Source: a virus. From it: a stretch of 64,000 nucleotides of DNA. Below the pieces are notes generated by a model. It ran no database searches. It was given only the letters and a program-made list of their open reading frames with translations, and had not been told where the DNA came from. Location of the stretch: the IMG/VR virus record IMGVR_UViG_3300018077_000007, positions 1-64,000 of that record; one strand, given 5' to 3'. A program made the position numbers and the translations under genes. Positions 41,529 through 56,435 of this stretch are shown piece after piece (position 1 is the stretch's first letter; each line of letters begins with the position of its first letter).

Positions 41529-44500
41529 ATGGCGAGTCCGTTTGAGACGGCCCTCGAAGAAGACCTTGCGGAACTCACCGGACACCGCCCCAAGGGGCGC
41601 CCGCCCGTCCCGCCCGTCCTTTCTCCTTTCGAGCGAAATCTCACGGAGGATCTGAAGGCGCTCACCGAAGAGAAACGCACCCGGCTCGCCGAGGAAGCCT
41701 TTGGCATTGACCTGGCGGGGCGCCCCCGGCCCACAATGGAGGAAGTGGCTGGCGTTTCCCCTGCTCAGATCCTTGCCCCCGCCCTTCCGACCTCTCCCGA
41801 AGCCGCCGCCGCCCTGAGCCTCCGCACCGCTCCAGAGCCGGTCATCCCCCCCGTGCCGTCTCACTTGGAGGTGCTCCGTACTCCGCCGGGGCAGCCCGGT
41901 CCGGGGATCGCGCCGGTGATCCCGGCGGGAGCGCCGTTGCCGGGGCGAGTGCAGCCCGTGAGTCGCCCGCCCGCCATGACCGCCGAGATGGCCTTCGCGC
42001 AGGCTCCCGAGGCGATGGTTGAGGCTCCTTCGACCACGCCTGACATCCTGGCGGCGCTTGCGGCACTCCCTCGGGTGGCGCGTCCGACTCTCGAAGAGAT
42101 GACCCCAGAGGCTAAGTTGCTTCGGAGCCTCATGGCTCTTCCGTCCGAGGTCTTTGCTCAACAGGGTCCTCCGGCCCCTCCGCCCAAGATCACGCCCTAC
42201 CAAGCCCCCTCGGTCTTTGAACCTCCTGAAACCGTGGCGGGTCGGGCAGGCCGAGCGATGGTCTTCGGACTCCGCACTGGAGCAGTCGGGCAATTTGCCC
42301 GGTGGCTCAATCAGCAGATCGGCGAGCAGCTTCCGGGGCCACCGTCCGGTCCCGTGCAGGCCATTGATCCTGACAACGCCTTTGAGCAATTGATTGCACT
42401 GGGCACCAGTCTCGGGACCGATTGGAAGCTCTTCAGCTTTGGCGGCAAGGTCGGCATGGAAGCCATGTCCCGCGTGCTCAACGGTATCGGAGCTGGGATG
42501 ACGAAGCGGGGCGTCGCGGCAGGGCTTACCGAGGCCGAGGCCCGTGCTGCGGCCCAGCAGGTGCTTCGGGAGAATCCGGTGGTCCAAATGCTCACCGGGG
42601 CTGCGGTGGGGGCCAGCGCCCTCGCGATTCCTGGAGCGGCTCGGGAAACAAGTCGAGAACTCGTGACCGGTGAACCCTTGCAACCCGGCAAGATCGCAGC
42701 GGCGGCAGGCAAGGAAGCGATCATCGGGGGGTTAACCTTTGGGGTCGCTGCCCCGATTGATTCCCGAATCCTCCGGGCTACCGCCCTGATCTTGGGGTTT
42801 GGAACATTGCCGCCGATTGTCCAGGAACAGCGGATGCCCACGGCCCACGACCTCATCAACGCGGGCGTGTCGATTGGACTCATTGAATTAGCCGCCGCCC
42901 TGATGGGAGTCAGGAGCGGGTGGCAGGCACGCCAAGCCAGAGGTGAACCACTTCCCGAACTGGGGCGCGATGTTGTTGGGAACGTGATTTATGACCGAGT
43001 TCTCGGCATTTTCAAGCGGAAGGGAATGTCGGAGAACGAGGCGCGGGCGAGTGCGGATCGCTTGATTCAGGAAACGGTTGGGGTTGCCGCCAAGCCGACA
43101 CGGGCGACGACCGGTGCCCAGCCAGCCACACCGGGAGAAGCTGGTTCCCTCGCCCGCCCCCGCGAGGGGTTGACCGAACCCGAAATCGAGTTGGACGTGC
43201 TGGAGCGCCGGGCCGCCGAACTGCACCGCCAGATCGCCGCCGAGGAAGCGGCACCCGCGCCGCCCCCCCCGCCAGCGGCTCCTCCCGCGCCCCTGCCGCC
43301 TCCAGCGCCCCGACCTCCTGCCCTCGTGCCCGTTCCACCGGCTCCCACTGAGATCGCCCCGCCTGTGCCCCCGGTGGCCCCAGGAGCCCCTCTTCCGGCC
43401 CCGATTGAGCGCCCTCCGGCCCCTGTGACATGGGGGGGGTGGCAAGAAACCCCCACAGGGCCACCGTTGGAGTTGTGGACCCTGACCGAGGCCATTCCGG
43501 GCCATCCCGATGGTTCGACGGTCGGCCGGGAGACCTTGGAAGCGGCAGGGTTCACGGTGCCCGAACCTCCAGAGATCCCGCCCCAAGTCCCGGCTCCGAC
43601 CCGTCCAGCCCCCCAGGTTCCCGTTCCACCGGCTGGAGTTGCGGGCGCTCCTCCGCCATCCGTTCCTGAAACTGCCCCGGGGGCAGAATTGCCACCTGAG
43701 ACTCCACGTGGAACATTACCCACCGAAGGATTCACGCGGGTTGGCGCTGCCGAATACGGGGACCTGCCGAAGGAAGGGCGCTCCATCTACAACCCGACCG
43801 GACTCCGTGGGCGCGTCGTCGGATCGGATGCGGAGAACTTCTACGTGAGTCGGCTCGCTGGATCCGTCGCCTGGGTGGATAAATACCCCCGACAACTGAT
43901 CGAAGACACGCAAGCCTACTTTACCGAAGGCGCTGCCGTCCAGACCCCCTATGGCCCCGCCACCCTCGTCACGCCACCGGCCCGCGATGACCGGGGCATG
44001 GTGATGGTGACGGTGCGCTGGCCGGCGGGCATTCCAGCAGAAGTGTCCGACCGCCTGGGCGCATCGGCGCTCTTGGATGCCCCGGTCTTCCAGGGGCGTC
44101 CCGAAATGCAGGCTGATTGGGTCGGCTGGCGAACCGTGCGCCCCGGCTATCCCTCGGTGGGGCAATGGAAGCTCCGGCAACCTATCAAGGGGCATGAGAG
44201 CGGGGAAGTCGTCACCGCCTTAGCTATTCGGGATGCAGGATTCCGGGCACCGATTCCTCCAGAAGCCCCGCCGGCTCCCCCCACCGCTCCCAAGGCCCCC
44301 GTTGCCCCGGTGCCGCCACCGCCGAAACCGCCCCGACCAGGAAAACGCCTTCTCAGGCCAGATCAACTCAGCGATTTTCGTCCCGGCATTGACCGGGTGG
44401 AACGGCGCGGAGATCGCACCTTTGTGGTGGACTCCCTCGGGGAACGGGCACCCGTTGAAGTGCAATCGGATGTCGTGATTCCAGAGATCGAAACTCGGCT

Positions 44501-47500
44501 CCGCGCCCAACGTACCCAACCTGCGTTGCGCAACCGAGCCATTCAAGCAATTCGACAAACCCCGTTCCTTTCACCAGAAGGAAAGGCCGAGCGTCTTCGG
44601 ATTCTTGAAGAGCCAGAGGAACTTCCAGCCCCAGAAGCGGCACCTCCGGTCACGCCGACAGTACAGCCGACCCCGCCTCCTTCGGGGGTGATCCCGGTCC
44701 CCCGCCCGACCGACTATCGGCTGGTTCAACGGCTCCCAACCGATCCCGTCACCATTCAGATGCGGGAACCGACCGGGCGCTGGACCACGGCCACCACCGT
44801 TGATGATGTCCCGGCCGCTGAAGAATGGGTGAGGGCCTGGGGAGGAACGATTATCCGGCGTACCCTGCCACCCCCGCCCCTTACCGCTGGCTCCCGCGTC
44901 CGGCTCAAGGATGGGCGGGACGGGACGGTCGAAAGCCTCAAGGGCGGCGTGGCCCGCGTGAAACTGCCCTCGGGGCAGAAGGTGAACGCCCCGCTGCGGT
45001 CGCTGACGCCGAAAGAACCCGAGATTGCCGTCCCTGCCGCCCCACCGCCCACCCCAACCCTGGAAGAAGGGCAGCGACAAGGAACCCTCGTCCCAATTGA
45101 GCCTGCCACCACCAAGGCGATTTCGGATCAGGTCAGCGAGTACCTGAAACGGCTAGAGCAGGTTGAAGGGACGCTAGAGCCCGAAGAGATCGCCGAGGGC
45201 CAGGTGTTACTGACTCGGGTGCAGGATCATCTGGATGAACTGCCCGCCGCCGCCCTGTCCCAACGAGCCGATATGCGGGCGGCGGAAGAAAAACTCCGGC
45301 TTCCAGCCGAACAGGGAACTCGGCCGGAATACGTTGGGCCGACTCGCCCGCCTCCTTCACCGCCCGAACCGCCGAAGCCCATTGATCTTGACCGCCTCGG
45401 GCCATCCATGCGGCGAGCTGAGATTCGCGGCGCGAAGGTCGGGCAGGCTGTCACGTTTCGAGGAGAGACCTGGGCGCTGGCGAAATCGGGATACTGGACG
45501 CATGGTGGTGAGACCCTGGCGACCCAGGCCCTCGTCTCACATTTCGAGTCGATGAGTCGCCAACCGGCTCCGATCCCGCCAGTTCCGCCAACCGAGGTTC
45601 TTCCCTCTGGGCGTGTGCAACTGGCCGATGGGCGTCAAGGAACCGTCGTCGGACGGTCCGAAGGTCTTGCCCCCTGGAAAGGAATCATCACGCGGGTTCG
45701 GCTCGACGACGGAACGGAGGTGAACGTTCGGACCGACCGCTTGACTTCTGTGCCAGCCGCGCCCACACTGGCTGGTGAGGAGGGTGGCCGTGCCGTTATC
45801 CCACCACGAGAACCCGAACGTCCCGCCGAGTCTCGCGGCCCAGATCGAAGACCACTGGCGGAAGTATCGCCCGAACCTAGTCCGCGCCCTAGAGGCGGAC
45901 AGCCAGTTGAAGGACTCGGTGGAGGAGGCCGCGCTCCTGACCGTGGAGGCGCTGGACGACCTGCTGGAGAAACGGGTGCCATACAACCAAGCGTGGGAGG
46001 CCGTCCGCCACGAGTGGGCGTTCCTGCCGGCGGAAGACGAGGTGCCCGACCTGCCCCTTCCGTTCCTACCAATCTCGATTACCGCTTCACCCCAGACGAC
46101 GCCGCCCGCATCGTAAGCGGCGGTCCTAAAGAGCGCGTTCGCCGCAACCTCGATAGCATCCGGCTCCTCAAAGAGATTGAGGCGGCTGGGCGCCCCGCCA
46201 CCCCCGAAGAACAGCAAACCCTGGCTGCTTACGTTGGGTGGGGACCCTTCAAACAAATCTTTGAGCGCTACTGGGATCCGAAATGGGCCGATCTCTACCA
46301 AGAGATCAAGGACACCCTCACCGAGGACGAATACGAAGCCGCCCGCGCCTCCAGCCTGAACGCCTTCTATACCACGCCGGGAGTGGTAGAAGCGATGTGG
46401 GGCGCAGTCAAGCAGTTCGGACTACCGGGTGGTCCCGCAACCCGCATCCTTGAACCCGCGATGGGGATCGGGTACTTTTTCGGCTTTATGCCCGACACCT
46501 TCACGGGGGTCCGGCGCGTCGGCGTGGAATTGGATCCGATCACGGGCCGGATGGCCACGCTCCTCTTCCCCAGTACCCGCGTCCATGTCCAGGGCTTCGA
46601 GACCGTGCCGTTTCCGAAGAACTTCTTTGATCTGGCGGTCAGCAACGTGCCGTTCGGGGAGTTCGGCGTCCATGACCCAGCTTATCGCCGAGAACCGTTC
46701 CTCACGGAGTCGATCCATAACTATTTCTTCGCCAAGGCTCTCGATGTGGTCCGGCCTAGTGGCGTCGTCGCGTTCATCACGTCACGCTATACCTTGGATG
46801 CACGAAATTCCCGATTTCGCCAATGGCTCGCGGATCGGGCGACCTTGTTAGGAGCGGTCCGGCTCCCCGAGACGGCCTTTCAACGCGCCGCTGGCACCGA
46901 AGTCGTTACCGACATTCTCTTCTTCCAGAAGTACCCCTCGGGCACGACCCCGACCTGGGTAGACAGCACCCCGATGCAGGTCAGTGGCGTCACGAAACAT
47001 GTGAACGCCTATTTCCAGGAGCATCCCGAGATGGTCCTGGGCCGGCATGTGGTCGAACGCGGGATGTACGAACCCGAGGCATTAACCGTCAAGCCAACTG
47101 GCGATCTCCTTCAACAATTAGCGGCGGCCCTCGCCGAGTTGCCGGAGGATGTGATCCGATCCGCCGGAATTCCCGTGCGCGACCCCCTCCCTGCCGCCGT
47201 GCCAGAACCGCCCGGTGCGGTCAAAGACGGCGGGTTCTTTCTTGACCAGGGGGCGATCTTCCGTAAGCACGGGACCGAAGCGGTCTCTGCCGACATTCCC
47301 GTCGCCCAGATCCCGAAGGTCACGGCACTCCTCCACATTCGGGACGCGGCCCGCGAGGTGCTCCGGGCGCAACTCGAAGAGCTTCCTGATGCCGAATGGG
47401 AGACGGCCCGCACCCACCTCAATCGACTCTACGACATCTTCCTCAAGCGACACGGACCGCTTTCGGCTCGAACGGTCCACCGAGAATTCACGGGCGACCC

Positions 47501-50500
47501 CGATTTCCCGTTCCTGCTGGCGCTCGAAAAGAGTTATGACCCTGACACGAACCGGGCGGAGAAGGCCGACCTCTTCATAAAGCGCACCATCCAGCCGTAC
47601 CGACCCCCCGAGCGAGCTGAGACCCCCCAAGCGGCCCTCCTGATCGCTCTGAACGAAACCGGGCGAGTGGATCTGGCCCGGATGGCGGCGCTGGTCGGGC
47701 AGTCTCCAGAAGGCGTCCAGACAGCCCTGGCCGGGTTGATTTATAAGAACCCTGAAGGCGACTGGGAAACCGCCGAGGAGTATCTCTCGGGCAACGTGCG
47801 GGAGAAGCTCCGGGCCGCCGAAGTCGCCGCGTCCCTAGAGTCTCTGTATCAGCCGAATGTTGAGGCACTTCTCCGCATCCAGCCGACGGATTTAGTCCCA
47901 GGTGAGATCGAGGTGCGCCTGGGATCGCCGTGGCTCCCGACCGACACGGCGGAAGCCTTTATTGGGCATCTCCTGGGCGCACAGCCGAGTGCCTTCCGCG
48001 TGGGTCATCACGCCGCGACGGCCACGTGGACCATTGAGGCGCGTGGATACCAAGGCGACCGTGTTCTCCAGAGTGCTGAGAATCTTCGGGTCTGGGGATC
48101 GGAGAACTACCGGGCCGTGGAGTTAATTCGGGATTCCTTGAATGGGGCATTCCCCACGGTTTGGACAAAAGATGCGGATGGAAAGAATGTGGTGGACCAA
48201 GACGCCACCCTTGCGGCCCGCGACCAGCAAGAGAAAGTGAAGGCCGAGTTTCGGAAGTGGGTGTGGACCGACGAGGACCGGGCCACCGCATTGGCCCAAC
48301 TCTACAACGAGCAGTTCAATGCCCTCCGGCTCCGGGAGCACGACGGGCGCCATTTAGAGTTGCCCGGCATGGCCAAGGGGGTACTCCGGGATGGTGATCT
48401 CGCCGCCCATCAAAAGAACGCCGTCTGGCGCATCCTCCAGGGCGGCAATGCGCTCATTGCCCACCACGTCGGATCAGGGAAAACCTATGTGGCCGCCGCC
48501 GCAATGATGGAGTTGCGTCGGCTCGGATTGGCCCGGAAGCCTATGCTGGTGGTGCCGCGAAGTCGGCTGGAAGGCACGGCAGCCGAGTTTCTTCAACTCT
48601 ATCCCGCCGCCCACCTGCTGGCCATCCAGCCGGAAGACTTGACGCCGCAGAAGCGTCCCGAACTGATGAGCCGGATTGCCACCGGCGACTGGGATGCCGT
48701 CACGGTGAGCCGAGAGAGCTTCGAGCGCCTGCCGGTGCGGAACGCGACCCTCGCCACTTTTATTCGGGAACAACTGCAAGAGTTGGAGGACGCGATCCGG
48801 GCCGAGAAGGTCGCCGAGGGACGCAGCCGAAGCCCGCTCATCCGCAAACTCGAAGTCGCCAAAAAGAAGCTGGAACAGAAGCTAAAAGACGCTCTCAAGC
48901 CCGAAGCGAAGGATGTTGCAGTAGCGTTTGAGGAATTAGGGGTCGATGCCCTTTTCGTGGATGAGGCCCAAGCCTATAAGAATCTGCCGGTCCGCACAGC
49001 GGCCCGCAACATCGCGGGGATCAACACGGCGGAATCCAACCGGGCCTTCGATCTGTTTATGAAGAGTCAATGGCTCCTGCGCCGCAACAACGGGCGGGGA
49101 CTGATCTTTTTGACGGGGACCCCGATTACCAACACCATTGCGGAGATGTATACGCTCCAGCGGTTTCTTGATCTTCCGCGTCTCCGGCAGTTGGGGCTGG
49201 CCGAGTTCGACGCTTGGCGGGGGCAGTTTGGCGAGATCGTTCAGAGCGTAGAACTGAACGTTCAGGCGACGGGATACCGGGTCAAGAGCCGGTTTGCCAA
49301 GTTTGTGAATCTGCCGGAACTCTTAACGCTCTATCGCACCGTGGCGGATGTGCAGACTGACGCGATGCTGAAGCTCCCGAAACCGGGGCTGGCGGGGGGC
49401 CGGCGCCGGGAGATCGTGACGACTCCGCATCCACGGATGCGCGCCTTCCTGGACGAGTTGAACCATCGGGTGGAAGCCATCCAGAAGCGTGTCGTTGAAC
49501 CGACCGTAGACAATATGCTCAAGGTAAGCACCGATGGACGGAAAGCCGCCATTGACATGCGGTTGTTCGATCCGACAGCCGGAGACGTGGCTGGGGGGAA
49601 AACCAGCCGAGCCGCCGAGGCCATCTACGAACAGTGGCACGTCAATCGGGCGATGAAGGGAACCCAACTCGTATTTGTGGACTTTTCAGCCCCGGCGACG
49701 GGAGCGTTCTCCGTGCCGACGGACCTCCGCAACAAGTTGGTTAAGTTAGGCATTCCGAAGGCCGAGATCGCCTTTATTCAGGACGCGAAGAACGTCAAGG
49801 CTCAGGAACAACTCTTCCAGAATGTTCGCCGGGGGCGCATTCGGGTGTTGATCGGGTCCACGGAGAAGATGGGGATTGGGGTGAACGTCCAAAACAAGGT
49901 GGTGGCCCTCCACCATCTGGATGCGCCCTGGCGTCCTGCCGATCTGGAACAACGTGAAGGCCGCGCTTTGCGGCCCGGCAACGAAAACGCCGAAGTCGAG
50001 GTTCTGCTCTATCTCACTCCCGGTTCCTTCGATGCCTATATGTGGCAAACCCTGGAGCGCAAGGCTCGGTTCGTCGACCAGATCATGCGGGGCGAAGTCG
50101 GAGTGCGGTCGGCGGAGGACATTGAGGGCCGAGCCTTCACCTACGCGGAGTATAAGGCCCTCGCGTCGGGGAACCCCATCGTGGCCGAAAAGGTCCAGGT
50201 GGACGCGGACATTCTGCGGTTGGGACGCCTCCGCGCCCACCATGACACACAGCAATGGCAGATCCGGCGCGATCTCGCGGGGCTCCCCGTACGCTTGGCC
50301 GAGGCCGACAAGCGGGTGACGGCAATCCAATCCGACATCGGAACCCGCAATCAAGACCGCCCCGCTGAATTCAGCATGACCATCGCGTTGATGCTCCGCA
50401 CGGAACACCGTGGCACCTTCACCGATCGAGTCGAAGCGGGTGAGCAACTCTGGAAAATGTTGAATGCGGCTCGTGGAAGCAGCGCGCCAACGAAACTTGG

Positions 50501-53500
50501 CGAATTTGCTGGCTTTGCCCTCATGGTAAAGGGGTTTGATACTTCAGACATTACGCCCGCCGTTTGGCTGGAGGGCCAAGCCGAGTATCCGGTTTCGACG
50601 CTTTCGGAAACCGGATTAGGTGTGATTCGCAGCATCGAAGGGCAACTTCTGCACCTCGAAAGTAAACTCACCGAAGCCGAGGCCGACCGTGCTGCCCTCC
50701 AGCAGAAGCGCACGACGCTCGAAGGTGAACTCGATAAACCGTTCCCAGAGGCCGCCAAACTGGCGGAACTGGAGCAACGCCAAGAAGAACTGGCGCAGCA
50801 GCTTGATCTCACGGCCAACGACCATCAGGCGGCAGGGCAAGAGACCGAGCCCGACGAGGGGGCCGAAGAACCCCCCGAGATCCGCGAACCCGAGTCCCGA
50901 ATCAACCCCGACGCTGTTCGCGGGTTCCTGTCTGAAATGCGCGTGGAGCGGGAAGGGGAAACCCGGGCGACGGCCGCGATGGACCCCCGGCTTCTCAAGG
51001 TGTTGGGCGGGAACCTCTATACCGGCGATCTCGGGAAAATCGCGGTGAAAGAGATGCTCCAGAACGCCGTGGACAGCGTGCGTGGTCTGGCCGACCAAGC
51101 TCAGGGGCGCGTGACGGTCGACGTGACGTTGACAGGCGATACCAAGACCATCGCGGTTGAGGATAACGGGGTCGGCATGACCCCCGAGGTGGCGACCCAG
51201 GAGTTGGTGGACATCGGCGGAAGCCAGAAGGTCGCCGGTGCCTCGGGTGGGTTCGGGATCGCCAAGGTCGCGATCTTCGCCAACGCTGCCACGATTGACG
51301 TGGAGACCACCGCGAAAGATCCGGCGGGCCAGGGGGCCACGCGCACGAGGCTCTCCGGCTCATCCGACGAATGGCTTGACCCGCAGCAGGGACTTCGCGT
51401 GGAGACCGAGCGGATGGCTCCCGACACGCCGACCGGAACTCGAATCAGCATTACCCTGGCCGATACCGTGCAGACGAATCCCTATGAGACCCGCAGCTTT
51501 CTGAACAGCTTCCTCCAGTGGCATCGGCTCCCGGTCTCGTTCCAGTTCCGTCTCAATGGGGAGATTCAAGCCCTGCCGCAGGGACGGGTTGACCCGCTGA
51601 AGACCCTCACGATTCCAGGCGGGACGATTGAGCTGTTTGCCACGTCCGACCTGGTGTCTCAAAGCGTAGTCCAGGTCGAAATCCTCAACCACGGACTCCC
51701 GCAGTTCCGCCAGGCGTTCTTTCTCGGGGTGGAGACACAGATCCCGGGGCGGATCGTGGCCGATATTCAGTCCCGAGAAGGGCCAGAAGCCCCCGAGTAT
51801 CCGTTTTCGCCGGATCGGGAACGACTCCGGCCGACGACCGAGAGGGCACTGACCGACTATCTGAAGGATGAACTCGCCAAAGACGCGATCACCAACGAGC
51901 GCCGCGAGTACCAACGCATCCTGTCGGAGGCTCCGGTCATTCCCGGCACGGGCGGTCACCGGATCGTGGACACGACGGAGGGGGTCTCCCGTGATCTCCT
52001 CGAAGCGATCGCCACATCCGACGCCACCCGTCGCGTCTCAGGACACCTGGCCGGGATCGTCGCGCGCCTGCGAGCTGAATTGGCCCGCGTGGAGGCGCAA
52101 CCGTACTGGGCACCAGAGCAAATTCAGTATTTTGGCTTGAGCGTCGCCGGGGCGCACTTGGGGATGAATCTCAATGGCCGCTTGATTGAAGGGAGAGATG
52201 ACGCCCCCAACCTCGTGGCTTTCAATCCCTATAGCATCCTCGATGAAGTGCAGACCTTGGCGCAGGTGGCCGGGTTGGCGGCCGACGAAATTCCCCAGCA
52301 GTTTGCCGCGAGAGCCGTATTCACGGTCATCCACGAACTGGCGCATCAAGCGAGCGGAGCGCACGAACAAACGTATGCGGGAGCCTTGACACGAGCGGGC
52401 GGCAACCTGATAATGCAGGCGGCGCAGGCCACCGCCGCATTGACGGCGCTCGTGAAGGAGCAGAACAATGCCATCCTCCGCACCCTCGCTGCCGACCTTG
52501 CCCGGCTCCGCCCTCAGTGGGGCGGAGAAGACCGTCTTAGCAAAGTTGTCACCGGCCTTGCAGCAACCACCGGAGCCGAAGGCCCTCCGGCTCCTCTTGG
52601 CAGACGCGAAGGCGCAGGGGCTCGACCCAGAGAAGCTCTACCAGCTGGCCGTCCAGGTGCGGTCCCCAGCATGGGTCCCGGCCCCGCCGTACCCGGAGGT
52701 CCGCCCGGCGTAGTCCAGGAACCCATCCTGCCCCCAGCACCCTACGGCGGGGCCGAACCGGCGGGACCGGAATACCGCGCCGCCATGGTGCAGCAGATTC
52801 TCGACGACCTCGTGACGGCGGGTCGGAGAGAATTGAAGACCGCCCCAACCTTTCCCGCGTGGCAAGCCCGGATGTTGGCTCAATGGGGCGATTGGACACG
52901 CCCGTATCTTCAGGCGACCTATGATCGGCTGACAGCGCCGGAAACTGCCCCGAGGGCAGAACCGACGACCGCCGGGACCCCGCTGCGCCCAGAGCCCGAA
53001 CCCGCTCCCCCCGAACCCGAACCGATGGATGCTGGAGTCCCGCCGGTGGAACCGCCGCCGCCCCAGGCCGAGACGATGGCCGCCCCGAATTTCCAGCCGC
53101 CGCGAACCCCGAGAGAACGGCAAGAATTGATCGCCAAGGCCGCGATCCTGAAGCGGCTCGAAGACGTGCTTCGGGTGCCGATCCAGACCGGGCGCGTGAG
53201 CCGCCCAGGAGCTCGAGGCGTCTTCCTCGTCGAACCCGAAGTGATCCGGCTCCGGTGGGCCGGAAACCTCCATACGGGGCTCCATGAGATCGGCCATTTC
53301 CTCCACAAGCGCGGGATGCTGCCCGAGGGGTGGGCGGCGCGGCTCGAAGCATTAGGGCAAGGGCATGAAGGCGATCCCGAACGCGAAGGCACCGCCGAGT
53401 TCGTGCGTCTGTTCGTCATGGACCCTGCGGGCGCGGAGGCCGCCGCGCCCGGGTTGCCAGACGCCTTCACGGCCCGCCTGAATCGGGACTGGCCCCGCGC

Positions 53501-56435
53501 CCTCGAAGCCCTCCTCTGGGCCAAGGAACGGCTGGCGGAATTTCGTCAGGCCCCTCTCCTGGCCCGGATTGAAGCGTCAACCGTGAAAGGCACTCGCCCG
53601 TTCCTGGCGCATCTCCGCAGCCGATCCTTCGCAGAGTGGGCCGTCCGGTTTTATACCGCTGTGGTGGACGATCTGGAACCGATCCGCCTGATCGACAGGA
53701 TTGTGGAAGAGGCCCAGGGGGAGCCGCTGCCCACGGATCGGCAAGCCTATGTACTGGCCCGGATGGCGCACGGGTGGACCGGGGTGGCGGCGGTTGCCGT
53801 GACCGATGGCGTGCCCGATTGGAACACGCTGGTCCCCCGCACGGATGTCCCGAGCTTCGTCAAGGCCGTGGAACCGATCTGGAAGGACTGGACGCGGTTT
53901 GGGGCCTATGTCCAGCTTCGGCGGGTGGTGGACGACCTCGTGGGTGCGGAGGCCCCGCCAGCGGACCTCACGGGGCCGGGACGGGCCAAGTGGGACGCGG
54001 CCCAACGGCGGCTCCAGGAAGCCGGGCGGCGCCGGCTCGCCGCGTGGGAGACGACGCCCGCCGAGGCCCAACGGCTCGTGGAGCAGATCGAGACCCCCGC
54101 GTTTCGACAGGCGGCCGAGGACCTCTATCGCTGGAATGGCGCGATCCTGGATTTCGTCGCAGCCTCGGGACGCTACGCCCCGGAGTTTTTGGATCTGCTC
54201 CGCCGGATGCACGCCCACTACGTGCCGTTTTATAGCTGGGTGGAGGAACCCGATGCGATGCCCGGTCCACCCGGCGGCGGCAATCGGCTGGCGAACTTGC
54301 CCAGTCCGATTCGGATGCTGCGGGGGAACGAGTTGCCGCTCCTTGATCCGCTCCTCGCCCTCGTGCGGAACGGCTTCGCCCTCATCAACGTGGCGATTCG
54401 GAATGACGTGGGGGCGACCCTCGTGGACAACATCGAGTCGGTCGAAGGGTTGGGGCATCTCCTCCATCGGGTGCCCCCTCAGATGGTGCCGACGCGCGTC
54501 TCTCTCGAAGAAATGCGCGGGCCAATGGAAGAGGCCGGGCTGGATCTGTCGGATGCCGATCTGTCCACCATGGGCACGGTGTTCCGGCCCGCTCGCGGGA
54601 AGGAGCAGGCCCCGTATCTGGTGATCTATCGCAATGGGAAGGCTGAACATTACGCCGTCGATCCCCTGCTCTACCAATCGCTCCTGTTCCTGACGCCTCC
54701 TGAAGCGAATCTTGCCGTGAAAACGGCGGCGTTCTTCGCCAAGATGCTCCGAGGCGGGGTAACGCTGAGTCCATCGTTTGCCGTGGCGAACGTTGTCCGG
54801 GATCAGGTGACCGTCGCGGCCACGGCGAAGGCCGTCCCGTTCCGTGAATGGGCTGAGGGGGTGGCGGCGATTATCGGCGGCACCGAAGTCGCGAAGCAGT
54901 ACGCCGCGAGTGGAGCCTCGATCTTCGGGATTCGCGGGGACGACGTGCGAAGCCTTGAACGCCTGATCCGCCGGGCAGCGCAGGGGCGATTTTCCACGCT
55001 CCGAGATGTGGGGGATCGACGGCAGGGGATGCGGGCTCTCTGGGAGGTGATGGCCGACGCGATAGACGCCATCAGCAGCGGGCAGGAAGCCATCACGGAA
55101 CGGGCCACCCGCGTTGGCGTCTTCGGGCGTCAATTAGAACGGCCTAGACCCGAAGATGTCGCCTCCGAACGACCACAACGGGCCATCGCCTTGCGAGCTG
55201 GGTTTGAGAGCCGTGAGGCGAGCGTGGATTGGCGACGGCATGGTGGCAGTCCCGCCCTCCGGCAATTTGCTATGACGACGGTCTTTTTCAATCCCTGGAT
55301 TCAGGGCGAGGACAAATTCGCCCGGACCATCGGGGGCAAGCAGAGCCGCGCCCGTGCCGCCTGGATGGGGGCCATCCTGTTTGGAGCCGGGCTGGTGGCG
55401 TATCTTTGGAACAAAGAGCATCCGTCCTGTTGGGATCAGCGGGCCACCTACGAGAAAGACACGAACTTTATCGTGTGCCTGCCGGGGGGGGAGGAGGCCG
55501 TGAAGGTGCCGGGCGCGTGGGAGTGGCACGTTGGATTTATCGCGATCCCGCGCCGGGTGTTTGAGTATTTTGACCGCACCGATCCCGACATCCTCCATAA
55601 CTTTCTTCGGACCTCTGGGCGCGGGCTCTTTCCCGGCAGTTGGCTTCCGAACATTTTCGTGCCCTGGCTGGAAAACGCGATGAACTGGTCCATTTTCCCG
55701 GGGCGCCCTTTGGTGCCCCGGGGTGTAGAAGGTCGGGAACCCGCCGAGCGTGACACGCCTGGGACCGCCGAAGTCGCCCGGCGGATCGGGAAGGCGCTGA
55801 ACTATCCCCCTCCGTTCGTCCAGAACGTCATCCGGGGCTATTTCGGCACGGTCGGGATGGAACTGACGCGGCTCCTCGATCCGCTCCTGGCGGATCCCAC
55901 CGCCCCGCCCCCGGCTCGGCGGCTGAGTGATTATCCCGTCATCCGCCGGTTCTTCGCGTCTGGCCCGTCCCTCCAGTCCGAATGGATCGAACGATTCTAC
56001 CGATACCGCAAGCAAGCGACCGAGGCGAAGGGGAGTTATGACCAGAAGCAGAAGATCGCCGGGTGGGCGGCATTGGTCGCCACCGATGAGGGTCGGAAGG
56101 AACTCCGACGCCGTGAACTCCAGGGCGATCCCCGGCTCCACGAGGTGGAGCGCTTTGCAAAAGCGCGGGCCTGGGAATTGACGATCGCCAGCAGTTTTGA
56201 GCACACCGCCAGCCTGTTTGCCCAGAGCCGGGAAGACTTCGAAGCGATCCGCGCCGATCCGAAGCTGACGCCCGAGCAGAAACAGGTGGAGTCGGACAAG
56301 ATCAAACGAGCCATGGTGCAGGAAGCGAAGGAACGGGTGCAGGGAGCCGACCTCTTGCGGCGCACCCTTAGCATCCAGGCGGCGGAGAAGGCGGCGGCGG
56401 CGGAGAAGGCGACCGCCGCAGGAGGAGGCCGATGA
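41529..56435 (+). CDS. Giant polyvalent virion protein (4968 aa): SH3-like, DNA methylase, SNF2 helicase, GHKL ATPase, zincins
   Basis: Order by residue: helical/Pro-rich N-terminus (1-630); duplicated W-x-GW ... GHxxG ... AGF module (about 635 and 864); SH3/KOW-like GSRVRLKDGRDGTV (about 1121) and GRVQLADGRQGTV (about 1362); adenine methylase with EPAMGIGYFFG (about 1641) and SNVPFGEFG (about 1704); SNF2-type helicase with HHVGSGKT (about 2311), VDEAQ (about 2477), TGTPITNT (about 2529) and REGRALRP (about 2809); GHKL ATPase with EMLQNAVDS (about 3175), EDNGVGMT (about 3211) and SGGFGIAK; zincin HELAH (about 3602); second HEIGH (about 3919); hydrophobic segment (about 4610); coiled-coil end. 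It resembles DarB-like polyvalent proteins ejected with DNA to shield it. The methylase motif is NVPF rather than NPPF. Confidence 0.9.
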   Translation: MASPFETALEEDLAELTGHRPKGRPPVPPVLSPFERNLTEDLKALTEEKRTRLAEEAFGIDLAGRPRPTMEEVAGVSPAQILAPALPTSPEAAAALSLRTAPEPVIPPVPSHLEVLRTPPGQPGPGIAPVIPAGAPLPGRVQPVSRPPAMTAEMAFAQAPEAMVEAPSTTPDILAALAALPRVARPTLEEMTPEAKLLRSLMALPSEVFAQQGPPAPPPKITPYQAPSVFEPPETVAGRAGRAMVFGLRTGAVGQFARWLNQQIGEQLPGPPSGPVQAIDPDNAFEQLIALGTSLGTDWKLFSFGGKVGMEAMSRVLNGIGAGMTKRGVAAGLTEAEARAAAQQVLRENPVVQMLTGAAVGASALAIPGAARETSRELVTGEPLQPGKIAAAAGKEAIIGGLTFGVAAPIDSRILRATALILGFGTLPPIVQEQRMPTAHDLINAGVSIGLIELAAALMGVRSGWQARQARGEPLPELGRDVVGNVIYDRVLGIFKRKGMSENEARASADRLIQETVGVAAKPTRATTGAQPATPGEAGSLARPREGLTEPEIELDVLERRAAELHRQIAAEEAAPAPPPPPAAPPAPLPPPAPRPPALVPVPPAPTEIAPPVPPVAPGAPLPAPIERPPAPVTWGGWQETPTGPPLELWTLTEAIPGHPDGSTVGRETLEAAGFTVPEPPEIPPQVPAPTRPAPQVPVPPAGVAGAPPPSVPETAPGAELPPETPRGTLPTEGFTRVGAAEYGDLPKEGRSIYNPTGLRGRVVGSDAENFYVSRLAGSVAWVDKYPRQLIEDTQAYFTEGAAVQTPYGPATLVTPPARDDRGMVMVTVRWPAGIPAEVSDRLGASALLDAPVFQGRPEMQADWVGWRTVRPGYPSVGQWKLRQPIKGHESGEVVTALAIRDAGFRAPIPPEAPPAPPTAPKAPVAPVPPPPKPPRPGKRLLRPDQLSDFRPGIDRVERRGDRTFVVDSLGERAPVEVQSDVVIPEIETRLRAQRTQPALRNRAIQAIRQTPFLSPEGKAERLRILEEPEELPAPEAAPPVTPTVQPTPPPSGVIPVPRPTDYRLVQRLPTDPVTIQMREPTGRWTTATTVDDVPAAEEWVRAWGGTIIRRTLPPPPLTAGSRVRLKDGRDGTVESLKGGVARVKLPSGQKVNAPLRSLTPKEPEIAVPAAPPPTPTLEEGQRQGTLVPIEPATTKAISDQVSEYLKRLEQVEGTLEPEEIAEGQVLLTRVQDHLDELPAAALSQRADMRAAEEKLRLPAEQGTRPEYVGPTRPPPSPPEPPKPIDLDRLGPSMRRAEIRGAKVGQAVTFRGETWALAKSGYWTHGGETLATQALVSHFESMSRQPAPIPPVPPTEVLPSGRVQLADGRQGTVVGRSEGLAPWKGIITRVRLDDGTEVNVRTDRLTSVPAAPTLAGEEGGRAVIPPREPERPAESRGPDRRPLAEVSPEPSPRPRGGQPVEGLGGGGRAPDRGGAGRPAGETGAIQPSVGGRPPRVGVPAGGRRGARPAPSVPTNLDYRFTPDDAARIVSGGPKERVRRNLDSIRLLKEIEAAGRPATPEEQQTLAAYVGWGPFKQIFERYWDPKWADLYQEIKDTLTEDEYEAARASSLNAFYTTPGVVEAMWGAVKQFGLPGGPATRILEPAMGIGYFFGFMPDTFTGVRRVGVELDPITGRMATLLFPSTRVHVQGFETVPFPKNFFDLAVSNVPFGEFGVHDPAYRREPFLTESIHNYFFAKALDVVRPSGVVAFITSRYTLDARNSRFRQWLADRATLLGAVRLPETAFQRAAGTEVVTDILFFQKYPSGTTPTWVDSTPMQVSGVTKHVNAYFQEHPEMVLGRHVVERGMYEPEALTVKPTGDLLQQLAAALAELPEDVIRSAGIPVRDPLPAAVPEPPGAVKDGGFFLDQGAIFRKHGTEAVSADIPVAQIPKVTALLHIRDAAREVLRAQLEELPDAEWETARTHLNRLYDIFLKRHGPLSARTVHREFTGDPDFPFLLALEKSYDPDTNRAEKADLFIKRTIQPYRPPERAETPQAALLIALNETGRVDLARMAALVGQSPEGVQTALAGLIYKNPEGDWETAEEYLSGNVREKLRAAEVAASLESLYQPNVEALLRIQPTDLVPGEIEVRLGSPWLPTDTAEAFIGHLLGAQPSAFRVGHHAATATWTIEARGYQGDRVLQSAENLRVWGSENYRAVELIRDSLNGAFPTVWTKDADGKNVVDQDATLAARDQQEKVKAEFRKWVWTDEDRATALAQLYNEQFNALRLREHDGRHLELPGMAKGVLRDGDLAAHQKNAVWRILQGGNALIAHHVGSGKTYVAAAAMMELRRLGLARKPMLVVPRSRLEGTAAEFLQLYPAAHLLAIQPEDLTPQKRPELMSRIATGDWDAVTVSRESFERLPVRNATLATFIREQLQELEDAIRAEKVAEGRSRSPLIRKLEVAKKKLEQKLKDALKPEAKDVAVAFEELGVDALFVDEAQAYKNLPVRTAARNIAGINTAESNRAFDLFMKSQWLLRRNNGRGLIFLTGTPITNTIAEMYTLQRFLDLPRLRQLGLAEFDAWRGQFGEIVQSVELNVQATGYRVKSRFAKFVNLPELLTLYRTVADVQTDAMLKLPKPGLAGGRRREIVTTPHPRMRAFLDELNHRVEAIQKRVVEPTVDNMLKVSTDGRKAAIDMRLFDPTAGDVAGGKTSRAAEAIYEQWHVNRAMKGTQLVFVDFSAPATGAFSVPTDLRNKLVKLGIPKAEIAFIQDAKNVKAQEQLFQNVRRGRIRVLIGSTEKMGIGVNVQNKVVALHHLDAPWRPADLEQREGRALRPGNENAEVEVLLYLTPGSFDAYMWQTLERKARFVDQIMRGEVGVRSAEDIEGRAFTYAEYKALASGNPIVAEKVQVDADILRLGRLRAHHDTQQWQIRRDLAGLPVRLAEADKRVTAIQSDIGTRNQDRPAEFSMTIALMLRTEHRGTFTDRVEAGEQLWKMLNAARGSSAPTKLGEFAGFALMVKGFDTSDITPAVWLEGQAEYPVSTLSETGLGVIRSIEGQLLHLESKLTEAEADRAALQQKRTTLEGELDKPFPEAAKLAELEQRQEELAQQLDLTANDHQAAGQETEPDEGAEEPPEIREPESRINPDAVRGFLSEMRVEREGETRATAAMDPRLLKVLGGNLYTGDLGKIAVKEMLQNAVDSVRGLADQAQGRVTVDVTLTGDTKTIAVEDNGVGMTPEVATQELVDIGGSQKVAGASGGFGIAKVAIFANAATIDVETTAKDPAGQGATRTRLSGSSDEWLDPQQGLRVETERMAPDTPTGTRISITLADTVQTNPYETRSFLNSFLQWHRLPVSFQFRLNGEIQALPQGRVDPLKTLTIPGGTIELFATSDLVSQSVVQVEILNHGLPQFRQAFFLGVETQIPGRIVADIQSREGPEAPEYPFSPDRERLRPTTERALTDYLKDELAKDAITNERREYQRILSEAPVIPGTGGHRIVDTTEGVSRDLLEAIATSDATRRVSGHLAGIVARLRAELARVEAQPYWAPEQIQYFGLSVAGAHLGMNLNGRLIEGRDDAPNLVAFNPYSILDEVQTLAQVAGLAADEIPQQFAARAVFTVIHELAHQASGAHEQTYAGALTRAGGNLIMQAAQATAALTALVKEQNNAILRTLAADLARLRPQWGGEDRLSKVVTGLAATTGAEGPPAPLGRREGAGARPREALPAGRPGAVPSMGPGPAVPGGPPGVVQEPILPPAPYGGAEPAGPEYRAAMVQQILDDLVTAGRRELKTAPTFPAWQARMLAQWGDWTRPYLQATYDRLTAPETAPRAEPTTAGTPLRPEPEPAPPEPEPMDAGVPPVEPPPPQAETMAAPNFQPPRTPRERQELIAKAAILKRLEDVLRVPIQTGRVSRPGARGVFLVEPEVIRLRWAGNLHTGLHEIGHFLHKRGMLPEGWAARLEALGQGHEGDPEREGTAEFVRLFVMDPAGAEAAAPGLPDAFTARLNRDWPRALEALLWAKERLAEFRQAPLLARIEASTVKGTRPFLAHLRSRSFAEWAVRFYTAVVDDLEPIRLIDRIVEEAQGEPLPTDRQAYVLARMAHGWTGVAAVAVTDGVPDWNTLVPRTDVPSFVKAVEPIWKDWTRFGAYVQLRRVVDDLVGAEAPPADLTGPGRAKWDAAQRRLQEAGRRRLAAWETTPAEAQRLVEQIETPAFRQAAEDLYRWNGAILDFVAASGRYAPEFLDLLRRMHAHYVPFYSWVEEPDAMPGPPGGGNRLANLPSPIRMLRGNELPLLDPLLALVRNGFALINVAIRNDVGATLVDNIESVEGLGHLLHRVPPQMVPTRVSLEEMRGPMEEAGLDLSDADLSTMGTVFRPARGKEQAPYLVIYRNGKAEHYAVDPLLYQSLLFLTPPEANLAVKTAAFFAKMLRGGVTLSPSFAVANVVRDQVTVAATAKAVPFREWAEGVAAIIGGTEVAKQYAASGASIFGIRGDDVRSLERLIRRAAQGRFSTLRDVGDRRQGMRALWEVMADAIDAISSGQEAITERATRVGVFGRQLERPRPEDVASERPQRAIALRAGFESREASVDWRRHGGSPALRQFAMTTVFFNPWIQGEDKFARTIGGKQSRARAAWMGAILFGAGLVAYLWNKEHPSCWDQRATYEKDTNFIVCLPGGEEAVKVPGAWEWHVGFIAIPRRVFEYFDRTDPDILHNFLRTSGRGLFPGSWLPNIFVPWLENAMNWSIFPGRPLVPRGVEGREPAERDTPGTAEVARRIGKALNYPPPFVQNVIRGYFGTVGMELTRLLDPLLADPTAPPPARRLSDYPVIRRFFASGPSLQSEWIERFYRYRKQATEAKGSYDQKQKIAGWAALVATDEGRKELRRRELQGDPRLHEVERFAKARAWELTIASSFEHTASLFAQSREDFEAIRADPKLTPEQKQVESDKIKRAMVQEAKERVQGADLLRRTLSIQAAEKAAAAEKATAAGGGR
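43672..43686. repeat. Dispersed palindrome copy 6, inside the giant gene
   Basis: CTGCCC, CGG, GGGCAG is 15 nt, so in frame, and encodes ETAPGAE within a Pro/Glu linker. The gene-end copies have a 4-nt loop (16 nt) instead. Confidence 0.5.
45790..46116 (+). CDS. Overprinted gene inside a linker of the giant gene
   Basis: 108 residues from GTG 45790 after GAGGAGGGTGGCC, in another frame of the giant gene. The product looks like a real globular helical protein: LAAQIEDHWRKYRPNLVRAL, EEAALLTVEALDDLLEKRVPY, AWEAVRHEWAFLPAEDE. Its codons end mostly in G or C, as in other genes here, while the giant frame in the same stretch is Pro/Gly/Arg low complexity with poor third-position GC. It resembles small phage proteins with an HWxxxxP ... 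EAxExVRxEWxxLP plan. Function unknown. Confidence 0.7.
   Translation: MPLSHHENPNVPPSLAAQIEDHWRKYRPNLVRALEADSQLKDSVEEAALLTVEALDDLLEKRVPYNQAWEAVRHEWAFLPAEDEVPDLPLPFLPISITASPQTTPPAS
52468..52713 (+). CDS. Second overprinted gene inside a linker of the giant gene
   Basis: 81 residues from ATG 52468 after GTGAAGGAGCAGAAC. The peptide SALSGAEKTVLAKLSPALQ and KALRLLLADAKAQGLDPEKL forms convincing amphipathic helices, and codons end mainly in G or C. The giant frame here is a Gly/Pro/Ala/Arg linker between the GHKL/zincin region and the next domain. The Pro-rich tail is shared by both frames. Function unknown; a regulator or assembly partner of the giant protein is possible. Confidence 0.6.
   Translation: MPSSAPSLPTLPGSALSGAEKTVLAKLSPALQQPPEPKALRLLLADAKAQGLDPEKLYQLAVQVRSPAWVPAPPYPEVRPA
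52945..52959. repeat. Dispersed palindrome copy 7, inside the giant gene
   Basis: CTGCCC, CGA, GGGCAG, 15 nt and in frame, encoding ETAPRAE, almost the same peptide as copy 6. Flanked by Pro/Thr linker. Confidence 0.5.

Follow-up and report, generated by a model that had tools for sequence, protein, structure and literature searches.

A putative small gene nested in the +1 frame of DarB-like methyltransferase-helicase genes is conserved across phages

In the phage spanin pair Rz/Rz1, Rz1 is nested in the +1 frame of Rz, and rz1 is annotated inside rz in PEp14. The arrangement described here resembles that pair in that a conserved small gene lies wholly inside another phage gene on the same strand, but it involves other proteins and another function, the host gene is 10-15 kb long, and the nested gene is unannotated in the records examined. 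The host belongs to the DarB-like methyltransferase-SNF2 helicases/polyvalent proteins, among them P1 DarB (PMC5512222), in which, however, the linker and the nested gene are both absent. We found no wording on nested or overlapping genes in the polyvalent-protein paper (Iyer et al. 2017, PMC5512222) and, within the open-access literature, no report of the nested gene. A conceivable precedent, P1 iddB, was discarded, as it runs antisense in ddrB and is unrelated, and P1 darB is without a nested ORF. The giant gp69 of the Bcep22-like phage JC1 is a virion protein by mass spectrometry, with 51 unique peptides (PMC9144972); by analogy with this relative alone, the giant studied here may be packaged and injected, its virion status not being known for the phage in question. 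The small protein, in turn, recalls TnpV (PF14198) of the Tn4451-type clostridial mobilisable transposons, likewise a small helical protein, although the gene described here lies inside another one and does not stand alone. For TnpV of Tn4451, a role in excision has only been postulated, from homology with lambda Xis (PMC3158075).

The window, that is, the whole stretch of DNA analysed, comprises 64,000 nt of a viral genome (positions 1 to 64,000 of IMG/VR record IMGVR_UViG_3300018077_000007). An initial annotation had proposed that a 108-residue ORF with a strong ribosome site, high third-position GC and a helical sequence is overprinted in a Pro/Gly/Arg low-complexity linker of a 4968-residue polyvalent frame, and that both frames are translated. 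The sequence traits were all borne out (Table 1). The perfect AGGAGG 6 nt upstream of the GTG gives an anti-SD duplex energy of -12.7 kcal/mol, whereas 5985 control ATGs in the +1 frame of giant ORFs have a median of -2.1. Read in the small frame, the nested bases have a codon-position GC of.72/.43/.84, and read in the giant frame one of.84/.72/.43, the giant outside this stretch having.71/.50/.72; the phase of the pattern is that of the small frame and not of the giant. A codon-usage score trained on the remainder of the giant reaches +0.13 in the small frame versus -0.08 in the giant frame over the same bases, and the +1 frame never comes out ahead by this score in the giant's 459 further windows of 108 codons, which makes the nested stretch the sole such +1 place in the giant. 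The ORF meets the criteria of a nested gene, in that it lies entirely within another ORF on the same strand in a different frame, has its own start codon and ribosome-binding site, and shows purifying selection in both frames (for the giant frame by stop avoidance only). The host gene, for its part, has the required adenine methyltransferase domain followed by an SNF2-type helicase: from the methyltransferase onwards it matches phrog_10089, DarB-like antirestriction (E 0 to 6e-139), and Pfam domains identify SNF2/ResIII helicase and HATPase in it.

Table 1. Features of the nested gene and its host gene in the window
Feature	Position	Strand	Remarks
Nested gene, 108-aa four-helix protein, distant TnpV relative	45790..46116	+	+1 frame of giant ORF; GTG start, TAA stop
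Shine-Dalgarno AGGAGG	45778..45783	+	6-nt spacer to GTG 45790; anti-SD energy -12.7 kcal/mol
Alternative GTG start, 113 aa	45775..45777	+	Less likely: without SD, energy +1.9
Host gene, 4968-aa DarB-like polyvalent protein (adenine methyltransferase, SNF2-type helicase, HATPase)	41529..56435	+	Open frame; phrog_10089 DarB-like antirestriction
Pro/Gly/Arg linker in giant frame, residues about 1421-1529	45789..46115	+	Same bases as nested gene
Methyltransferase domain start, adjoining nested gene's end	46110..47009	+	133 codons from small-protein match start to YVGWG motif
SNF2/ResIII-type helicase domains of giant	48399..49979	+	Pfam
HATPase_c (GHKL) ATPase domain of giant, downstream of helicase	51042-51341		Pfam

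Used alone as a tblastn query, the window protein gave only weak phage matches (E 5e-6 to 2e-3), in Stean, Itty13, LASTA, SopranoGao and PBC5, and a locus search with this single protein returned zero matches in viral or genome collections; the family could be reached only via profiles built from those weak matches. In Stean, LASTA and SopranoGao the match lies in the +1 frame of an annotated DarB-like CDS and begins MNLNxWVSQAxxHWKQHxPT. Profile searches retrieved 32 viral loci at first and 80 later, as well as 30 in bacterial genomes, placing homologues in more than 100 viral and prophage loci, with zero homologues in plasmids. The small gene was covered by a long -1-frame ORF in all 34 loci of the first set and in the window; over all loci, 213 matches are nested in the +1 frame of a long ORF, none in the other frame and nine are free-standing, counts that are redundant because repeated loci are included. 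Carriers of the nested gene include Erwinia phages PEp14, Pavtok and Stean, Pseudomonas phage Itty13, Klebsiella phages LASTA and SopranoGao, Agrobacterium phage Atu_ph08, Vibrio phage VvAW1, Ochrobactrum phage POI1126, Sinorhizobium phage PBC5 and Microcystis phage Mwe-JY07. It is annotated in none of the phage records examined, which show the giant alone (save for antisense ORFs in Itty13 and the upstream half in PBC5), probably because annotation does not call nested genes. In Itty13 (L002, 3975-16310), the giant gene is itself absent from the deposited annotation and antisense ORFs stand in its place. As homologues hold the same frame and place in many phages, the small ORF is not a chance one. 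A lack of homologues would have refuted the initial proposal, as would a conserved linker with stops in the small frame; instead, homologues exist and share the nested frame, and it is the giant linker that varies among them while the small frame stays conserved.

Loci were also chosen by the methyltransferase domain alone (123 loci, of which 91 are non-redundant by a filter on shared k-mers, not by a tree), scoring the longest +1 ATG ORF that starts no more than 700 nt upstream of the methyltransferase. Its median length was 99 aa, and 84% of the 91 loci reached at least 75 aa. In 529 control windows taken from these giants the median was 41 aa and 16% reached that length; the same test in the +2 frame gave 0%. 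These control windows lie within the methyltransferase-helicase part and not in other linkers, and the tests of SD sequences, codon-position substitution and stop avoidance given below are independent of them. A FastTree phylogeny of 105 methyltransferases, with weakly supported deep branches, placed the loci without a nested ORF mainly in one group of 12 rows (nine without, two with spurious-looking ORFs, one too short), while 84/86 rows of the other large group carry one. P1 DarB and the Streptococcus suis prophage methyltransferase-helicase are without the nested gene, so the methyltransferase-helicase can work without it. At the level of sequence comparison, these data demonstrate an old arrangement: most members of a large DarB-type clade have the small gene in the same frame and immediately before the methyltransferase domain.

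Profile-negative loci usually hold a different small +1 ORF at the same place. One such protein, type B, reads MQxLYxPxxYPxxxxxxLxxMPPLAxEIANRWMLGWPKRVKALI... and occurs also in Pseudomonas phage 8P; at the same place and in the +1 frame we observed type B (WMLGWPKRVKALI...HLARHEIAELYGL) at L188, L204, L205, L211, L214, L221, L226, L235, L242, L243, L260 and L281. Its predicted helix lay-out is similar to that of the TnpV-like nested proteins. Homology between the two remains unproven in sequence (hhalign probability 10%, Foldseek E 4.9) and was not accepted; helix lay-out and tree position only suggest kinship. A third nested +1 type lies upstream of the methyltransferase in the Bcep22-like phages JC1 (L282, 2654-2989, 112 aa) and BcepIL02 (L283), with SD energies of -8.8 and -12.4, respectively, and a marginal match to the profile (E about 3e-4 to 7e-4).

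We then compared the two frames in relatives, as the initial annotation had advised. Counted by small codon position (1/2/3), the nested genes of 35 disjoint pairs differed by.092/.082/.199 substitutions per site; in the flanking methyltransferase of the same pairs the values were.110/.079/.322 by giant codon position. Small position 3 is giant position 1, and small position 2, the least substituted, is the giant's silent third position. With the two frames compared over identical sites, 94% of 5252 (non-independent) pairs had the higher amino-acid identity in the small frame. Among 59 non-redundant loci picked by the small protein only, the giant frame was open in 59/59, as against the 6.4/59 (giant's codon usage) or 24.7/59 (own codons permuted) expected from synonymous recoding; the giant frame is therefore kept readable, and the third frame was open in 0/59. 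Substitution patterns, stop avoidance and the start-codon SD strength given below together show that both frames are under selection. Judged by the substitution patterns, constraint is stronger on the small frame, and the giant Gly/Arg/Pro linker, with 89% disorder-promoting residues, looks like a disordered by-product. The earlier suggestion that the linker may owe its existence to constraint by the small gene agrees with both this composition and the low substitution at the giant's silent position. That both frames are translated is upheld only as far as selection goes, translation itself being without ribosome-profiling evidence.

Start signals are conserved as well. An ATG lies ~12 codons ahead of a conserved HW in nearly all members, the window member starting with GTG where most relatives have ATG. 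An SD-like sequence accompanies the conserved in-frame ATG in 82% of 83 non-redundant genes versus 9% of control ATGs, with median SD energies of -6.5 and -2.1, respectively (p 3e-30). In 12/94 non-redundant genes a small-frame stop falls no more than 5 codons before the ATG, in some only 0-2 codons. We consider it highly probable that the locus is a dual-coding gene whose small protein would come from internal initiation, with no ribosome profiling, proteomics or mutant data at hand. In the mechanism we propose, an SD and a start codon, the latter conserved, inside the giant mRNA would open a helical +1-frame protein of 75-130 aa by inferred internal initiation, and the giant would also be read through the same 327 bases, so that one stretch would yield two proteins.

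Other accounts of the small ORF fare less well. Its being a mere by-product of GC-rich codon bias in a low-complexity linker, and no gene at all, gains some credit from the control windows, 16% of which hold a +1 ORF of 75 codons or more; yet by-products would not explain homologous proteins in phages of several bacterial phyla, free-standing homologues, SD enrichment, substitutions concentrated at small position 3 or the reversed codon-position GC, and the substitution, stop-avoidance and SD tests refute the idea as far as sequence allows, leaving it scarcely conceivable. We also regard as very improbable that ribosomes on the giant enter the small frame by programmed +1 frameshifting, producing a shortened giant with a C-terminal helical domain. 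Such a product is what the deposited PBC5 record depicts, in which gp22, the upstream half, ends in the small protein without a change of frame; in phrog_938 the small protein is likewise C-terminal. However, PBC5 stands alone among known phages in this, and since its other frame is open as well, one indel or sequencing error in the 2001 record could account for it. Internal initiation is favoured because start and SD are conserved and stops closely precede the ATG; between those stops and the domain there is almost no room for the conserved shift site that +1 frameshifting would need. In the PBC5 loci (L006/L022), the deposited giant is split by a frame change, with the small protein fused to the upstream half.

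With the small protein taken as a product of internal initiation, it may be asked which frame came first. Overprinting usually adds a new gene to an existing one (review, PMC8227390), which would make the giant frame the older and the small gene a later arrival in the linker. This order seems unlikely, since the native codon pattern is found in the small frame, whose protein is also the better conserved, since the giant frame is anomalous over the nested bases, and since TnpV-type relatives occur as free-standing genes. The native codon pattern and the free-standing relatives argue that the small gene predates the overlap. The simplest history, an inference, is an extension of the host frame over an older small gene: a tnpV-like gene would once have stood beside or just inside the start of a methyltransferase-helicase gene, the host frame would have extended over it, and polyvalent upstream domains would later have joined through that stretch.

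AlphaFold2, run on 35 sequences, predicted helices at residues 13-26, 28-36, 40-60 and 65-77 with pLDDT near 90. Foldseek found no match to this model in PDB and a single one in BFVD, Q8W6J4_2, which is taken to be PBC5 gp22. Pfam TnpV (PF14198) matches 20/26 phage members below cut-off (best E 3.6e-5) and 9/10 members of a gut-phage nested type, MxKMLITxxQYxxLTPIGKEIHxYWMxFKPKMYKEM... (best E 1.5e-6), and the profiles of the phage and gut-phage types match each other with a profile-profile probability of 97%. The matches for which a score is given (20.5, 24.4 and 18.5 bits) do not meet the PF14198 gathering score of 27 bits, nor is the role in a Tn4451-type transposon fulfilled, the loci being phages/prophages or chromosomal methyltransferase-helicases. 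Membership in TnpV was accordingly rejected, as the Pfam cut-off is not reached, and the small protein was classed as a distant relative. The nested protein also corresponds to C-terminal positions 2084-2169 of phrog_938, annotated as endolysin; this part probably reflects PBC5-like records that join the small frame to the upstream half, and the endolysin label belongs to the other parts of phrog_938.

What the small protein does can only be inferred, no function having been shown. That it has stayed linked for so long to a single enzyme module suggests a role as accessory to the methyltransferase-helicase, which we put forward tentatively and with more doubt than conviction. Such an accessory, made from the same mRNA in step with the enzyme, might act as a chaperone, as a loading factor or as the keeper of its inactive state until DNA ejection. 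A real product that acts independently of the giant, for instance as a DNA-binding or recombination/antirestriction factor after the proposed excisionase role of TnpV, is possible too, short of an even chance and about as likely as the accessory role; this alternative concerns function only and is compatible with a dual-coding gene. It draws on the distant relation to TnpV, postulated to act in excision (PMC3158075), and on free-standing copies near restriction or mobilisation genes. Free-standing or degraded-context copies adjoin McrBC (L136, L138), HsdM (L133), Mob_Pre (L120) and an HTH protein (L134), and the L119 copy lies beside HsdM/HsdS with a methyltransferase-helicase remnant. Because some free-standing copies have no such module nearby, the small protein is not strictly tied to the methyltransferase-helicase, although these copies are few and not randomly chosen. 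Against independence, the very strong and old linkage to one site is easier explained if the products cooperate, and the Xis-like function of TnpV is itself merely postulated. The free-standing protein at L136 bears a long C-terminal extension.

Joining these lines, we offer as one possible reading, without regarding it as the probable one, that the DarB-type methyltransferase-SNF2 helicase has a dedicated partner in the TnpV-like small protein. Both would have been passed on as one dual-coding stretch, in which the small frame is ancestral and the giant linker its frozen by-product; the lineages carrying it would include Verrucomicrobia, gut phages and the phages of Proteobacteria, cyanobacteria and Bacteroides. 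The WMLGWPKRVKALI and Bcep22 types would then be versions of this nested protein that have diverged rapidly. The gene is apparently present in most phages of a large clade with antirestriction giants, cultured and well-annotated ones included, and missing from the records examined. The locus would be an instance of deeply conserved dual coding that lets the direction of constraint be read directly; it suggests that a disordered linker in a giant protein can be the shadow of another gene, and it adds an untested component to DarB-type antirestriction.

The initial annotation had named a giant polyvalent gene as the host. The nesting inside the giant stands, but the module to which the nested gene belongs is the methyltransferase-helicase. 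In Verrucomicrobia, methyltransferase-helicases of about 1,720-1,760 aa that lack the polyvalent front carry the nested gene near their own N-terminus, their genes beginning only tens of bases before the small gene; since these short proteins have it, the polyvalent front is unnecessary. A beta-clamp-like QLxLF upstream of the methyltransferase was considered and set aside, being only weakly enriched (12/124 versus 20/449 control windows). The short methyltransferase-helicases L141, L143, L146, L164, L194 and L220 have, near the N-terminus, a QL[SDE]LF that resembles a beta-clamp-binding motif.
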